NCBI RefSeq assembly: GCF_009690625.1
Contig: NZ_CP033878.1
Location: forward strand, 62,001-126,000
Source of the DNA: Halorhabdus sp. CBA1104
GTDB taxonomy: Archaea; Halobacteriota; Halobacteria; Halobacteriales; Haloarculaceae
DNA: 64,000 nucleotides
Reading direction: 5' to 3'
Each line of letters opens with the position of its first letter. Positions within the stretch are counted from its first letter, which is position 1. The notes under the pieces are model-generated. The model made no database searches. It saw only the letters and a list, made by a program, of their open reading frames with translations, and was not told where the DNA came from. This document shows positions 17,803 through 25,407 of this stretch, in pieces. Both the position numbers and the translations under genes were made by a program.

Positions 17803-18210
17803 TTACCCGGCGGTAACGCCGAGTCCGACTTCGAGCAGGATCGAAACACCCAGCAAGACGAGGCTGGTGACGAACACCTTCACGTCGCGGCTCACACAAG
17901 CCTCGCGTGGGAGGTGCGTGCCCGCAAGCGGCGGCAACGTGTGGATCCGTTGTTCGAACCCGAAGGCTTGGTCCCCTTCGACGCTCATCCCGAACAGCCG
18001 GGAGACCGGCCCACGTCCGTGTGGCGTCGGCTGGATGCCGAACGTGCCAACGCCGAACAACAGAAATCCGACCACGAACAGCGCGTACTTGAGTGTTATC
18101 AGCCCATCGCCAAACACTAGCGATAGCATGGCCAGCACAAGCACCACGACTGCCGAGACGTACCCGACCCACAGCGCGAACTCGGCGTACCGCAACCTGC
18201 TAAGAGTCAC
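17803..18210 (-). CDS. Haloarchaeal membrane protein of unknown function
   Basis: A 135-residue protein with about three membrane helices (WVGYVSAVVVLVLAMLSLVFG, LKYALFVVGFLLFGVGTFGI, VKVFVTSLVLLGVSILLEVGLG). The GTG start at 18210 lies inside the last codons of the ABC ATPase gene, giving an 11-base overlap and implying co-translation with the peptide-importer operon. No catalytic motif is seen. Whether it assists the transporter is unknown. Confidence 0.65.
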   Translation of the reverse strand: MTLSRLRYAEFALWVGYVSAVVVLVLAMLSLVFGDGLITLKYALFVVGFLLFGVGTFGIQPTPHGRGPVSRLFGMSVEGDQAFGFEQRIHTLPPLAGTHLPREACVSRDVKVFVTSLVLLGVSILLEVGLGVTAG

Positions 18211-19537
18211 TGGTACGACGCTCGATGACCGGCTTTACGTCCTCGTAGTCAGATTCGTGACGGTGGCAGTAGCTCATGTGCTCGGCTTCCCCGACAGGGT
18301 GAAAGTCCGGCCGCTTGAGGTCACAGACGCCGTTGAACGCGTCGTTCAGATGGTCGCGTGCATCTGTCGGCCGTCCCTCTTTTACCAGTTGGGCAGCCGT
18401 TTCGATGTGTTCGTCGACGTCTGCCGGGACATCGAGGTCGCCAAAGAAGTCTGCGACTGTCTCGTCGATGTCGTCGTACGCCGAGAAGCGTCCGAGCTGA
18501 CGTTTGAGGCGATTGACGGCACTGAGATTCATTCGTGACCGCTCACGGACGACTTCCCGGAAGCGTTCGATCGCGTCCCAGACCGCCTCGTCGACGTCTT
18601 CGTATCCCTCTGGCCGGATCTTGGCCGGACACCGCGTCGAGAACTGACAGCCTGTCGGCGGATCGCGGGGACTTGGTGGAGTCCCCGGTAGCGTGATGCG
18701 ACGGGAAGATGCCGACGGATCCGGATGTGGGATCGCCGAGAGGAGTGACCGCGTGTAGGGATTGTGCGCGTCCGCATAGACTGCCTCGGTGTCGCTTATC
18801 TCCATTATTTTCCCGAGGTACATGACTGCGACCCGATCACAGATGTGCCTCACGACCGCCAAGTCGTGGGCGATAAACAGGTACGTGAGATCGAACTCTT
18901 CTTGGAGATCCTCGAGCAGCGTGATGATCTTCGCTTGCACGGAGACGTCGAGTGCACTGACTGGTTCGTCGAGGACCAGAAACTCCGGCTCGAGGGCTAA
19001 CGCTCGTGCGATGCCGACTCGCTGGCGCTGGCCGCCCGAGAACTGGTGGGGATACCGATAGTAGTGTTCCTCCCGGAGCCCGACCGACGTCAGCAGGTCC
19101 AACACTCGCTCTTGGCGCTCCGTTTTGGTCTTCCAGTCGTGGGCGTCGAGCGGTTCGCGAATGATCTCTCCGACTGTCATCCGGTCGTTCAGGCTAGACT
19201 GGGGGTCCTGAAAGACCATCTGGGCGTTCCGACGCCAGTCTTTCAGCTCCTCGCCCGATAGTGTCGTAATGTCAGTCCCGTCGAAGGAAATGGTCCCCTC
19301 GGTCGCCTCTTCGAGGCGAACGAGCGTTCGCCCGAGCGTGCTTTTCCCACAGCCAGACTCACCGACCAGTCCCAGTGTCTCCCCGCGTTTGATCGAGAAG
19401 CTCACGCCGTCGACGGCTTTGACGGAGGAACTGGCGAACATACCGCCGTCACCGTAGTGTTTTTTCAGATTCTCGACCTCGATCAGCGTCTCACCCAACT
19501 GTGCCGCCTGTTCGGGCTGTTCGATCCCGCTACTCAT
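18200..19537 (-). CDS. Oligopeptide/dipeptide ABC transporter ATP-binding protein (F type)
   Basis: Second ATPase of the importer, 445 residues. Walker A is GESGCGKST, the signature is [15 protein letters not shown], and Walker B is [14 protein letters not shown]. The usual oligopeptide C-terminal Cys motif begins with [11 protein letters not shown] but is then interrupted by about 120 helical residues ([18 protein letters not shown]...) before the final MSYCHRHE. This makes the protein about 100 residues longer than bacterial OppF. It overlaps the D-type ATPase gene upstream by 8 bases. Confidence 0.9.
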
Positions 19538-20626
19538 CTGTAGTCACCTCTGTTTCGACATCTTCCCGGTCTGCTAGTGCTCTGTGGTGCTTGAGCCGTT
19601 CGTCTTCTGTCTTGTCTTCGGGATAGAGCAGACATGCTGCGGTGTGTTCGACTGTCTCGCCGACGTCGATGTGTTGGGGTGCCATCTCGTCGCAGGCGCC
19701 AAACGCCTGTGGACACCGAGGCGCAAACCGACAGTGGTCGGCCGGGGCGTTCGGGGTCGGCACTTCGCCTTCGATGGTGTTGAGCCCTCTCCACGGGAGT
19801 GTTCGCCCGGTATCGACTCGATGAGGGCACGCGTGTATGGGTGCTCTGGTCGATCGAAGAGGTTCTCGACTGACGCCTTCTCGACGATCTGTCCAGCGTA
19901 CATCACGTTCACGCGATCGGAGATATCGGCGATGACTCCCATGTCGTGCGTGATGAACAGGATTGCAAGGTCACGCTCCGCCTGGAGGTCCTTTAGCAGA
20001 TCCAGTATCTGTGCTTGAATCGTCACGTCGAGTGCGGTCGTCGGCTCGTCGGCGATCAGCAGGTCTGGTTCACAGGCCAGCATCATCGCGATGACTGCCC
20101 GTTGGCGCATCCCTCCGGAAAACTCGTGTGGGTGCTCGTCGAGACGGCGTTTCGCGTCGGGGATACCCACTGATTCCAGTAGTTTTGTCGCCTCTTTGGT
20201 TGCTTGTGCGCCTGTGATCCCGCGATTGATCTCCAAGGCTTCCCGGATCTGATTGCCGATCGTATAGACGGGATTGAGCGACTGCTGGGGGTCCTGAAAG
20301 ACCATACCGATCCCGCTTCCACGGATTTGCCGATACTCGGCATCGGAGAATGCCGTCAACTCTTGGCCCTTGAATCGGATCGACGATTCCGGAAGTACCT
20401 CTCCCGGGGAGTCGACCAGGCCCATGATCGAGCGGGCGGTGACGCTCTTGCCCGAGCCCGATTCACCGACGATACCGACCGTTTCGCCGGGATAGACATC
20501 GAAGTTCACGCTGTCGACGGCCCGGATCGTCTCCCGGTCGGTATGGAAGACTGTCTGGAGATCTCGGACCGAAAGCAGCGGCTCACCTTCCCCGCGTGCG
20601 CTCTCGGCAGCTTCCTCACGGGACAT
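19530..20626 (-). CDS. Oligopeptide/dipeptide ABC transporter ATP-binding protein (D type), apparent frameshift near the C-terminus
   Basis: First ATPase of the importer, about 365 residues once corrected. Walker A is GESGSGKSV, the signature is FSGGMRQRAVIAMM, and Walker B is LLIADEPTTALDVT. After IPGEHSRGEG the frame is lost at the CCC run at 19785-19787 (plus strand). Adding one base restores LNTIEGEVPTPNAPADHC and the Cys-containing C-terminus (CRFAPRCPQAFGACDEM), which ends at 19530 and overlaps the F-type gene. Without correction the protein ends in a nonsense tail at 19574. The ATG at 20626 overlaps the C permease stop (TGATG). Confidence 0.88.
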
Positions 20627-22170
20627 CAGGCACCACCCCCTGCAGCCGCCTCTTCGGCTTCGGCGCTTTCGGTCTCGGGATCGATCGCATCCCGAATGCC
20701 GTCGCCGAAGGCGTTGAGGCCGGTCACCAGCACGACGATGATCAGCCCAGAGAGCAGCGAGATGTGCCACGATGACGTCGCGACGTAGCTCTGGCCGAGC
20801 GAGACAGCCCGTCCCCAGGCCGGCGTCGGCGCACTGATCCCGAGCCCGTTACCGAGGAACGACAGCGCCGAGAGGCTGATGATGATACCACCGGTCGTCA
20901 TCGAGGCGTACACGAGCAGGTAGCCCACGATGTACGGGAGCATGTGTTTGCGCATGATCGTGCGCGGGCGCTGCCCGAAGCTTCGTGCGGCATCGACCCA
21001 CTCCTCTTGGGCCACCTGGAGGGCCGGCCCACGTACAGCCCGCCAGAGAAGCGGCCAGGTCGTAAACGCGAACACGAGCGCGAGGATGAACCCGCCGTCT
21101 AAGATGTTCCCGAGCCAGTGGTTCGCGAAGACCGCACTCACCATGATCAACAGGATCAACCGTGGGACTGAGACGATCCCGTCGGCAGTGGTGAGGATGC
21201 CCAGATCGATCGAACCGCCGTAGTACGCCGAGACCATCGACAGTACGGCCGCGATGAGTGTCGCAATCCCGATTGCCATCCCAGCGACGATCATCGTGAT
21301 CCGGGCGCCACCCATGAGGAACGTGAACAGATCGCGCCCGTTACTCAGTGTCCCGAATGGATGGAACCGGTCGAAGTTGTCGTAGGTCATCGGCCCCACG
21401 TTCTCACCGCTCCCCTTGGATTTCGAGTTGAAGTTGGCGTCGCCGACGAAGACTGTTTCGACTGATTCGGCTTCTGCGTCGTAGTACTTGATCTCGTGGC
21501 TGTAGGAACTCTGGATGTTCTGTTCGACGGTCGTCGGCCCGAGTGCCGGCCCGAAAATCGCCATCGTCAGGTACAACAAGAGGACGAGAATGCCGAACTG
21601 TCCCCAGCGGTGGCCCCGGAGCCGTCTGACCATGTCGTCGGTCGGTGTCCAGTCGGCCTGCCGGTAGTGATCGCGATAGACCTTCCAGCCACGGTACAGC
21701 CAGTAGCTCACGAGCAGTGCGTAGACGACGATCAGCGTGAGTCGCAGTGCCCACGCGAGTGCAGGCTCCAGTCCCAGGAACGTCCCTTTCCACGGGCCGT
21801 TCGGGCCGGCCATATACCCCTGATTGGGGATCGTTTCCCGGCCCAACAGCGTCGGGAGCGAGCCGGCCCACTCCGCCAGACCCGTCAAAAACGTCGAGCC
21901 GGCTGCTTGAACGTCGAGGACTGTACTCGTTGCACCCCCGGCGACGGCCCCGACGAGCAACTCGACGAGAGCCGTCACGCCGACGAACGTCCGTTCGAGT
22001 GTGGCGAACAGGAGTGCCGCGTACGTGCCGAACTCGACGGCGATCAAGGCGAGTAGCACGGCGAGCCACCGGAGGAACGGCCGTGGCGATTCGGCGATTC
22101 GCGTTCGGAGCCGCACGCGTTCGAACCCGGTCAACTCCTCGCGCGTCGTGGTAGCTGTAGTATCCGACAT
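20626..22170 (-). CDS. Oligopeptide/dipeptide ABC transporter permease (C type) with long N-terminal extension
   Basis: Permease of 514 residues, well above the ~300 of bacterial DppC. The N-terminal ~230 residues carry extra helices (FLRWLAVLLALIAVEFGTYAA, LRLTLIVVYALLVSYWLYRG). The core follows, with a periplasmic HPFGTLSNGRDLF segment in place of the usual HPLGTDxLGRD, and an EAA-like loop (ARSFGQRPRTIMRKHMLPYI). The ATG at 22170 has a GAGGTG ribosome-binding sequence. A GTG at 22179 would overlap the B permease stop. Confidence 0.88.
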   Translation of the reverse strand: MSDTTATTTREELTGFERVRLRTRIAESPRPFLRWLAVLLALIAVEFGTYAALLFATLERTFVGVTALVELLVGAVAGGATSTVLDVQAAGSTFLTGLAEWAGSLPTLLGRETIPNQGYMAGPNGPWKGTFLGLEPALAWALRLTLIVVYALLVSYWLYRGWKVYRDHYRQADWTPTDDMVRRLRGHRWGQFGILVLLLYLTMAIFGPALGPTTVEQNIQSSYSHEIKYYDAEAESVETVFVGDANFNSKSKGSGENVGPMTYDNFDRFHPFGTLSNGRDLFTFLMGGARITMIVAGMAIGIATLIAAVLSMVSAYYGGSIDLGILTTADGIVSVPRLILLIMVSAVFANHWLGNILDGGFILALVFAFTTWPLLWRAVRGPALQVAQEEWVDAARSFGQRPRTIMRKHMLPYIVGYLLVYASMTTGGIIISLSALSFLGNGLGISAPTPAWGRAVSLGQSYVATSSWHISLLSGLIIVVLVTGLNAFGDGIRDAIDPETESAEAEEAAAGGGA

Positions 22171-22175
22171 CGATG

Positions 22176-23267
22176 TCACCTCTCTGTGTCCTCCAACGTG
22201 ATCCGCGGATCGATGAACGTATACAGGATGTCTTGGGCAATGTTCACGGTCACCTGTACGATGATGAACAAGAAGACAAGCGCCATCACGAGCGGGATGT
22301 CAGGCCCCAGGACGCCCCGGAAGAACATGTTGCCAAGTCCCCGGATCGAGAAGACCTTCTCGACGAGGACGGAACCTCCGATCAGCAGATAGAACTCGCC
22401 CATGATGATCGGGAGGAGTGGGATCAAGGCGTTGCGGCCGACGTGTTTGGTCACGATTCGCCGCCCGGAGACGCCCTTTGCCTTTGCGGTCTCGACGTAC
22501 TTCGAGTTGATACTCTCGAGGACGGCTGTGCGACCGATTCGGATCTCGTTACCCATCGAGGACGATCCCAAGACGAGTGCCGCCGGAAGGATCCACTTGA
22601 TTGCAGTGGCGATGTTTGTCCACTTCGGGACGGGGATCCAGATCGCTTCTAGCAGTGGAATGCCAGCAAATAGATGTATGCTGCCGAACATATTCGACAC
22701 TGCGTCGGACGTCCCGATCACGTCGGTCGAAATCCAGAGATCGGGGTAAAACGACAGGAGACCGCCGGCAGAGAGTAATCCGACTACCATCACCGCGAGC
22801 CAGAAGTTCGGCATCGCCCGCCAGATGATGCCTCCGCCCGAGGCGATGTAGTCTCGCCAGGTGTTGGCCCGGAGACCGGCGTACAGCCCGCCGGGAATAC
22901 CGACCACCAATGCGACGGCGACTGACCAGAACCCGAGCCACAGCGTCACAGGCATTCGGTTCAGGATGAGGTCACCGACTGGCGTGCCACGCTGGATGAT
23001 CCACGACTGGCCGAAATCGAACGTGAGGAGGTCGGTGAGGACCTTCAGATACTGCGACCAGAGTGGGACTGTCGAGCCGTCTTGGTAGATGAGTCCGAGT
23101 GCAACTTTCAGTTGACGGATGTCTTCCGGTGTGGCGTCCTGTCCGAGGATGTTCAATACGGGGTCGATCGGCCCCAGATAGAGGACCATGAAACTCATCG
23201 TGATCCCGAACAGGAACACGGGGACAGCGAGCAACAGCCGTTTGAACAGGTACAGTAAACGGTTCAT
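22176..23267 (-). CDS. Oligopeptide/dipeptide ABC transporter permease (B type)
   Basis: Inner permease of the importer, 363 residues, with about six membrane helices beginning LLLAVPVFLFGITMSFMVLYL. The EAA loop (YVETAKAKGVSGRRIVTKHVG) contacts the ATPases. A segment near 185-235 (LISFYPDLW-like, with IGTSDAVSNMFGSIHLFAG) is longer than in bacterial DppB. It lies 262 bases downstream of the binding-protein gene and directly upstream of the C permease. Confidence 0.9.
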   Translation of the reverse strand: MNRLLYLFKRLLLAVPVFLFGITMSFMVLYLGPIDPVLNILGQDATPEDIRQLKVALGLIYQDGSTVPLWSQYLKVLTDLLTFDFGQSWIIQRGTPVGDLILNRMPVTLWLGFWSVAVALVVGIPGGLYAGLRANTWRDYIASGGGIIWRAMPNFWLAVMVVGLLSAGGLLSFYPDLWISTDVIGTSDAVSNMFGSIHLFAGIPLLEAIWIPVPKWTNIATAIKWILPAALVLGSSSMGNEIRIGRTAVLESINSKYVETAKAKGVSGRRIVTKHVGRNALIPLLPIIMGEFYLLIGGSVLVEKVFSIRGLGNMFFRGVLGPDIPLVMALVFLFIIVQVTVNIAQDILYTFIDPRITLEDTER

Positions 23268-23529: not shown

Positions 23530-25407
23530 CTATTCCTGGTAATTCGAGTCGTACCCTTCGGCTCCACCGGGGAAGACCTGTTTGGGAACCAAGTGGTAGG
23601 CCGCTTCACCGCGGCCCTTGAAGACGCTCTCGACGAAGTCCTCACGGGTGAGCACGTAGGCCATTGCCTCGCGGACGGGCTTTGGCACCTTCTCCATGTT
23701 GAAGCCGATGTAGTACGTGTTGATCGAGGGTGTCGAGACCATGTTCACTTCCGTCCCATCGCTCATCGGCCCGTACGTCCCCAGCGTCTGGCCCTGCTCG
23801 TTGGTCGACTCTTCGGTAGCCAGCTCGGGATTGTACTGGGCCGTCGGGATCCCAGCGACGTCGGCGTTCCCGTTCTGGAAGTAGCTGTAAAGGGCGGTGG
23901 TATCGGTGATGATCGCGTCGTGGAGGTCGAAGTCAGGGACTTTGCCGTGGTAGTCCTCGAAGGCTGTCGCGCGGAACTCGCCACCGTTGCCCTCTTGCCA
24001 CTGCTCGAAGACGAACGGTCCACAACCGACCGGACTCGTCGAGAACTCTTCCCAGGCCATATCGCCATCGTAGCCCTCGATGTCACCGACGATTCCTTCG
24101 GGGACGACCGAGAACGCCGAGTAGGCGAGCACTTCGAGCGCGTAGCCGAACGGCGCGGCGAGCGAAATCGTGAACGTGTACTCGCCCGTCGCTTCGACGG
24201 CGGCCGTCTCGGGGACGACGTTACCGTCGTCGTCGGTCTCGTGTTCGATCTGGAGCACCGACAGCGGGAAGTACGTGTTCGTGGAATTGTCCGACTCGAT
24301 GAGTCGCCGCATCGAGTAGACGACGTCGTCAGCGGTCACCTCGCCGTAGTCGCCGTGGAACTGAACCCCCTCTTTGAGCGTAAACTCGTACTCGGTGAGA
24401 TCGTCGCTGACGGTGTAGTCCTCGACGATGAGGGATTCGACTTCCGTCGTCCCGTTGACGTAGTTCATCGGCGCGTCGAACATGTTCATCACCTTGTCCC
24501 CGCTCTGGGTGTTCCCAGAGGCGGCCGGGTCCAGGGAGCTGAACGTGCTCGAGGTCCCATTGAGGACGTCATCGCCTTCTAAGCTGTTGACAGAGATGCT
24601 GTCTTTCGCTCGCGAGGGACCCATCCCGCCCGGCGGGTTGTAGTCGACGCGATCGTACCAGAACAGCTGGTCGACGGTGTGATAGACCGGGAGTAGTGCC
24701 GCCGAGTCCCACAGCGCTCGCTCGATGTTGATGGTGGCCTCGTCACGGATGCTCTGGGCCTCGTCACCCAGACCGGGGTTGTTCTGGACCCGATCGAACT
24801 GCTCGGTGACGTACTGGCGAATTTCCTCATCGCCCTTCGTGTCTTCGGACCAGAACAACGTCTCGCCGTTCGGTGTGTAGCTTTCGGCGTCGTAGATCGT
24901 GTTCTCCGGGTCGACGAGCTGGAGGAAGTTCTGGGCGCCAGGGTAGTCGGCGACCCACCCGAGCGTGTAGGCCTCGTGGTTCCCGCTCTGGGTGGTTTCG
25001 AGCAGCGACCCGAAGTCCGAGTCGCTGATGTTCATGTTGATGTGAGCGGCTTCCAGGCGTGCACGGATCGTGTTCGCCATCTCCTTCCACGCCGGGCTCT
25101 GGTACTGCAGCCAGTCGAGATCGTAGTTGTTGTCTGGCCCGTAGCCTGCCTCTTCCATCACCCGCTTGGCTTCACCGATTTTCGCCTCGTTGAGGCCATA
25201 GGGGTAGGAACTTGGAGGCTCGTATCCGTCATTCTCGGCCTCGGTTCCGGTGTCTCCACCGTCGCTTTCGGTCTCGGTCTCGGTTGCCGTCTCGCCGCTC
25301 TCGGTTTCGGTGTCTCCGCCACCACAGCCGGCCAGTCCGATACTCACCGTTGCAGCGCCGGTCGCTTTGAGGAACCGCCGTCGGTTCATTTCACTGTCGT
25401 CAGACAT
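23530..25407 (-). CDS. Tat-exported lipoprotein substrate-binding protein of a peptide-type ABC importer, circularly permuted
   Basis: Extracellular solute receptor (SBP_bac_5 class), 625 residues. A Tat motif (NRRRFLKATG, 8-17) and lipobox LAGC (Cys28) are followed by a Thr/Glu-rich linker. The domain order is reversed. Residues ~68-270 are the part normally found at the C-terminus (KRVMEEAGYG, ANTIRARLEAAHINMNIS, YTLGWVADYPGAQNFL). Residues ~285-625 are the part normally at the N-terminus (FTLKEGVQFHGDYGEVTADD, SPVGCGPFVFEQW, PVREAMAYVLTREDF). The protein ends at PGGAEGYDSNYQE, just where the normal order would continue into the first block. Both joins are in frame with plausible linkers. 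The start at 25407 is set by the Tat signal. Confidence 0.9.
   Translation of the reverse strand: MSDDSEMNRRRFLKATGAATVSIGLAGCGGGDTETESGETATETETESDGGDTGTEAENDGYEPPSSYPYGLNEAKIGEAKRVMEEAGYGPDNNYDLDWLQYQSPAWKEMANTIRARLEAAHINMNISDSDFGSLLETTQSGNHEAYTLGWVADYPGAQNFLQLVDPENTIYDAESYTPNGETLFWSEDTKGDEEIRQYVTEQFDRVQNNPGLGDEAQSIRDEATINIERALWDSAALLPVYHTVDQLFWYDRVDYNPPGGMGPSRAKDSISVNSLEGDDVLNGTSSTFSSLDPAASGNTQSGDKVMNMFDAPMNYVNGTTEVESLIVEDYTVSDDLTEYEFTLKEGVQFHGDYGEVTADDVVYSMRRLIESDNSTNTYFPLSVLQIEHETDDDGNVVPETAAVEATGEYTFTISLAAPFGYALEVLAYSAFSVVPEGIVGDIEGYDGDMAWEEFSTSPVGCGPFVFEQWQEGNGGEFRATAFEDYHGKVPDFDLHDAIITDTTALYSYFQNGNADVAGIPTAQYNPELATEESTNEQGQTLGTYGPMSDGTEVNMVSTPSINTYYIGFNMEKVPKPVREAMAYVLTREDFVESVFKGRGEAAYHLVPKQVFPGGAEGYDSNYQE

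Follow-up and report, generated by a model that had tools for sequence, protein, structure and literature searches.

The origin of natural circular permutations is debated (PMC3320104), and most of those known are old events inferred from structures. Swaposins and DNA methyltransferases are described as permuted by duplication (PMC3320104), and among substrate-binding proteins (SBPs) the closest described case is TpMglB-2 (Tp0684) of Treponema pallidum, a circularly permuted glucose-binding lipoprotein that keeps the SBP fold and whose authors suggested a link between the permutation and membrane tethering (PMC4990184). Here we analyze dppA in a 64,000-nucleotide stretch of Halorhabdus sp. CBA1104 (NZ_CP033878.1, positions 62,001 to 126,000; hereafter the window). 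Its product resembles TpMglB-2 in being a substrate-binding lipoprotein of an ABC system that was circularly permuted in nature; however, TpMglB-2 belongs to type I/cluster B, represents one permuted group, and is poorly similar in the moved part, whereas the window protein belongs to SBP_bac_5, is clearly similar in the moved part, and is one outcome of several independent events. With the swaposins and methyltransferases dppA shares the class of event and the proposed route, but it is one mostly operon-bound gene, permuted and unpermuted versions of which occur within one genus at 85-89% identity (joint region). The unpermuted reference is DppA/OppA (PF00496; 1dpp), to which the window protein is homologous along both parts and with which it shares DppBCDF partners and the role of SBP in a peptide-type importer. 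Relative to E. coli DppA, its parts are cyclically permuted, its new ends fall within the second lobe, and it would be lipid-anchored through a Tat lipoprotein leader. In the open-licence literature we found neither a permuted SBP_bac_5 protein nor comparable recurrence described. We consider it very likely that the window gene encodes the naturally circularly permuted SBP of a Dpp/Opp-type importer and that, in archaea, several independent permutations have affected this gene.

Swapped domain order in the window protein

The dppA frame is read on the minus strand from 25407 to 23530 and encodes 625 aa, beginning with a Tat/lipobox sequence (RRRFLKATGAATVSIGLAGC) that is followed by an acidic linker and then the SBP_bac_5 domain (Table 1). 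Against PF00496 the protein scores 190.8 bits (curated cut-off, 32.4) in two stretches, the better of which aligns residues 323-623 with profile positions 2-262, and the rest of the family's C-terminal half precedes it; no single collinear full-length match was obtained, in agreement with the initial annotation, which had proposed the permutation. Comparison with structures using phmmer gives the same exchange: residues 297-613 correspond to E. coli DppA 21-316 and residues 79-162 to DppA 330-416 (1dpp), the swap of halves is seen again with 3m8u, and in OppA structures, too, the N-terminal stretch maps onto the distal half, as with 4gl8, where residues 67-199 align with 341-476. An unpermuted haloarchaeal relative (locus L044) is collinear with DppA (123-572 to 30-448), indicating that the swap is not a general property of haloarchaeal sequence. 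Because the PF00496 match exceeds the cut-off but the domain order is swapped rather than collinear, the window protein is a family homologue in permuted form, with both parts homologous to one ancestor, in cyclic order, within an intact gene. We place the joint at about residues 275-287, near the residue 285 given in the initial annotation; there the normal C-terminal motif GPSRxKxN runs directly into the normal mature N-terminus, with practically no linker between them. The swapped Pfam and PDB matches, the equal order in about 30 distinct proteins of several haloarchaeal genera, and the unpermuted parent form in relatives support the reading of window dppA as a natural circular permutant of an SBP_bac_5 protein.

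In both the window and its relatives, dppB, dppC, dppD, and dppF lie downstream of dppA, providing the two permeases and two ATPases of a Dpp/Opp importer operon. Near position 19787, after GEHSRGEG in dppD, identity to Halorhabdus salina goes on in another frame; this shift in the C-terminal part reflects either an error in the sequence or a true frameshift. A search of the same genome returned, besides the window gene, one distant SBP match and lipoprotein leaders only. As a control, a joint fragment was searched against 72,556 plasmids; SBP matches appeared in 918 records, and no place covered at least 80% of the joint query.

Table 1. Coordinates of dppA, its parts, and the downstream operon genes within the window
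Feature	Position	Strand	Basis
dppA, circularly permuted SBP_bac_5 lipoprotein, 625 aa	23530..25407	(-)	Pfam and DppA alignment; order repeated in relatives
Tat signal and lipobox, residues 1-28, NRRRFLKATGAATVSIGLAGC	25324..25407	(-)	sequence; weak PF10518 TAT_signal match, below cut-off
Acidic low-complexity linker, residues 29-63	25219..25323	(-)	sequence
Family C-terminal part, now first, residues 64-274 (79-162 = DppA 330-416)	24586..25218	(-)	alignments
Joint, ancestral C-terminus to ancestral mature N-terminus, residues 275-287	24547..24585	(-)	comparison with relatives
Family N-terminal part, now last, residues 288-625 (297-613 = DppA 21-316)	23533..24546	(-)	Pfam and alignments
dppB permease	22176..23267	(-)	ORF; operon position conserved
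dppC permease	20626..22179	(-)	ORF; operon position conserved
dppD ATPase	19533..20629	(-)	ORF; frame shifts near 19787 vs Halorhabdus salina
dppF ATPase	18200..19537	(-)	ORF; operon position conserved

Cyclic orders in two archaeal groups and a proposed route of permutation

To describe the orders, the mature domain was split into five segments, S1-S5, the normal order being 12345. Among 103 distinct haloarchaeal DppA-like proteins, 38 have the normal order, 30 have the order 45123 of the window protein (type 1, T1), 33 have 51234 (T2), and two have 23451 (T3); each of the four orders occupies the dppA slot of dppABCDF operons. Normal-order proteins carry GPSRQKxN at the C-terminus and xLNLINSTxxTLDPI after the linker, and in the permutants these two ends are fused directly. 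The T1 cut lies in the loop before YPYG..AKxVMEEAGYG, the T2 cut between the YxxW motif and the helix that follows it, and the T3 cut in the HETDxDGxYxPxS hairpin. Pfam matches agree with these orders: the best stretch of T1 covers profile positions 2-262, and that of T3 begins at profile position 62; T2 permutants give one ordinary collinear Pfam match and are undetectable by Pfam because the cut lies beyond the modelled region. The two T3 proteins (L079 and L096) and a stray T2 protein (L024) come from a single assembly each. One 975-aa open frame (L051 864-3788, G027:C1) was considered as a partial duplication and rejected, since it combines a kinase-like domain (PF00069, E 2e-5, below cut-off) with a type-2 permutant and has no repeated segment; this fusion lies outside a dpp operon and is possibly a receptor kinase with a transporter-type sensor.

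A joint profile was also searched across the phylum, and joint-spanning matches outside the haloarchaea fell in one family (f21), which we take, judging by the character of its sequences, to be Thermococcales. Its members include a permuted lipoprotein (L181, genome G499), a close normal-order relative (L182, G450), and a distant permuted protein (L180, G558); the cuts of L180 and L181 nearly coincide, each falling after a helix (AKEYLKKAGYSE in L181) and ahead of the strand KIELWW. Within the order of G499, three species of one genus carry the L181 form. Four further species of this genus have the normal order and are 85-89% identical across the N-terminal side of the joint query; normal-order proteins from the order's remaining genera reach 63-85%. 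The Thermococcales hold at least one further permutation event, that of the L181 form, within one genus. L180 is probably another: it is counted separately because L181 has unpermuted proteins as its closest relatives and L180 is only 41% identical to L181 in the joint. The 588-aa L180 protein has a signal peptide and, in place of an N-terminal lipobox, a hydrophobic C-terminal anchor that ends in an arginine tail. Within one Thermococcales genus, permuted genes (L203-L205) are divergent to oppBCDF and normal-order genes (L206-L209) stand alone, away from oppBCDF; in two other genera the normal-order gene heads the opp operon.

A comparison of two loci from species of one Thermococcales genus aligns the exchanged parts at the DNA level, with L203 5713-6668 matching L206 5096-6051 and L203 5209-5684 matching L206 6062-6537 at about 79% identity; the promoter and leader regions appear similar in the permuted and normal-order genes. 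The linker tail of the normal order, EEVKA, apparently occurs twice in permuted genes, as EEAKK after the leader and at the joint within YLVYS-EEQKD-TITIGV. This doubling, of five residues, offers weak evidence of the kind that tandem duplication and trimming would predict.

The most plausible route would be a tandem duplication of the mature coding part, an in-frame fusion, and a trimming of the outer copies. In the window gene, the ancestral C- and N-termini would have been joined with no linker between them, and the chain would have been opened in the loop that precedes the RVMEEAGYG helix (DppA ~317-329), with the Tat/lipobox leader and the operon position unchanged throughout. We infer that tandem duplication with loss of the outer halves fits the recent Thermococcales event best. 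No tandem fused or half-trimmed dppA intermediate was found, only short repeated remnants, and three-frame translation downstream of the stop codons of L024, L079, and L096 revealed by eye no remnants of the missing segments. The failure to find a fused intermediate and the nearly linker-free joint speak for a different route, in which the gene was split and its halves then re-fused in reverse order, and for which transhydrogenases provide a precedent (PMC3320104). We nevertheless regard fission as unlikely, though worth keeping in view: an unsystematic look at the retrieved loci noticed no split half-genes, and two short signs, the Thermococcales linker tail apparently present at the joint as well as behind the leader and nine bases (GTCGAACAG) present at both new ends of L079, are as duplication with leftover overlap predicts.

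Independent origins and maintenance of the permuted genes

In a maximum-likelihood DppA tree, for which 78 proteins were first rotated into the normal order, the order changes five times. T1 forms one clade (100/95) and most T2 proteins another (100/100); the T2 protein L024 falls inside a group of normal-order proteins (100/99, 100/98), and the two T3 proteins are separate from each other, each with normal-order neighbours (99/90 and 98/88). Approximately unbiased (AU) tests reject one T2 clade (p 0.0008) and one T3 clade (p 3e-5). L024, L079, and L096 were checked as possible recombinants, and no recombinant segments were found; a normal-order protein is nearest for every segment of each, so a single transferred segment cannot account for them. 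A second tree, built from concatenated DppBCDF sequences at 31 loci and hence independent of the rotation, again contains five order changes, placing the L024 operon beside a normal-order operon (99/98), the L079 operon with two normal-order operons (100/100), and the L096 operon with two other normal-order operons (90/97). The DppA tree pairs T1 with the main T2 clade as sister groups (99/92), whereas in the partner tree they are separate and a clade uniting them is rejected (p 0.016), so the haloarchaeal events number four or five. The SBP gene has thus been permuted several independent times in haloarchaea.

These data leave very little room for a single permutation, from which the other orders, and the normal genes within the permuted range, would have arisen by reversal, horizontal transfer, or recombination. 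The sisterhood of T1 and main T2 in the DppA tree agrees with such a history, as does the C-to-N joint common to all permuted forms; the latter, however, is forced, because circular permutation always joins the natural termini. The AU tests reject a single clade for T2, for T3, and, on the partner genes, for T1 plus main T2; the segments of the isolated permutants are all nearest to normal-order proteins; and the DppBCDF partners place the permutants likewise. Under repeated permutation, a few loops would have been re-used as cut sites in independent archaeal events. A more tentative extension, to which we give somewhat less than even weight, is that archaeal SBP_bac_5 genes are a permutation hot spot, with about seven independent events, because the leader, low-complexity linker, and close termini ease the mutation and because a move of the anchor to another lobe is tolerated or even advantageous for permease docking.

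The window-type order is carried by about 30 distinct proteins of one clade (Halorhabdus, Halosimplex, Halolamina, Halonotius, Halobacterium, and others). It was found in every searched genome of the same genus except one (G006) and in other genera, including records of Halorhabdus salina, Halolamina salifodinae, Halonotius pteroides, Halobacterium salinarum, and Halosimplex carlsbadense; Halogranum, Haloferax, and Halospeciosus have the normal order. The search of haloarchaeal genomes suggested in the initial annotation thereby recovered both the equal permutation and its unpermuted parent, in several genera. Between Halorhabdus species dN/dS is ~0.10-0.24 in both halves of the gene, indicating that both are under purifying selection. 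The apparent frameshift of the downstream dppD in the Halorhabdus window genome could point to a nonfunctional relic, a reading that we find highly improbable given the low dN/dS of both halves, an operon that is intact across genera, and the dpp operon of H. salinarum, probably the permuted one and likely our locus L042, which is expressed and differentially regulated (PMC4299497; PMC1971269). Misassembly or a chimeric contig, which has the unusual order as its sole point in favor, is refuted for the window type by independent assemblies that carry the order uninterrupted in about 30 distinct proteins and by purifying selection on both halves.

Predicted fold, ligand site, and lipid anchor

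The AlphaFold model of a type-2 permutant (pLDDT 89.6, pTM 0.85, joint region >=90 in its blocks) has an SBP fold that matches peptide SBPs along nearly its whole length. For the window protein, another alignment, of 30 rows, gave a moderate model (pLDDT 69.7, pTM 0.62, joint <50), about half of which matches DppA; since Foldseek follows sequence order, a half-length match is expected where such a method meets the T1 cut. Asp408 of DppA, which we take to bind the peptide amino group, has an equivalent Asp that is invariant in the window type (D95), and the carboxylate-binding Arg355 of DppA falls in an alignment gap against the window protein. In the main type-2 clade, Ser occupies the Asp408 position (consensus GWIWSW); L024, L079, and L096 retain Asp. 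With Ser replacing Asp, the ligand of T2 could differ, and the main T2 proteins may bind other ligands.

Lobe II of DppA presumably spans about residues 261-478, a range that puts the new N-terminus on lobe II in T1 as well as T2. All examined permutants except L180 and the kinase fusion L051 have a lipoprotein or Tat-type leader at the N-terminus; with the leaders kept, the permutation would mainly alter, in physical terms, where on the protein the anchor sits. We propose that the permuted chain would fold into the usual two-lobed binding protein, with its lipid anchor on lobe II instead of at an N-terminus on lobe I, and would hand a peptide-like ligand to DppBC.

For annotation, these genes carry a warning, in that type-2 permutants escape domain scans. 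The presence of four cyclic orders of one operon gene in one archaeal order, and in another order of permuted and unpermuted genes that share a genus and about 79% of their DNA positions, provides replicate natural events that allow a test of the route (duplication or fission), of the loops that tolerate new ends, and of the place of the anchor in substrate hand-over to the ABC permease. Through the repeated permutation of an archaeal SBP, a rare protein rearrangement becomes traceable step by step.
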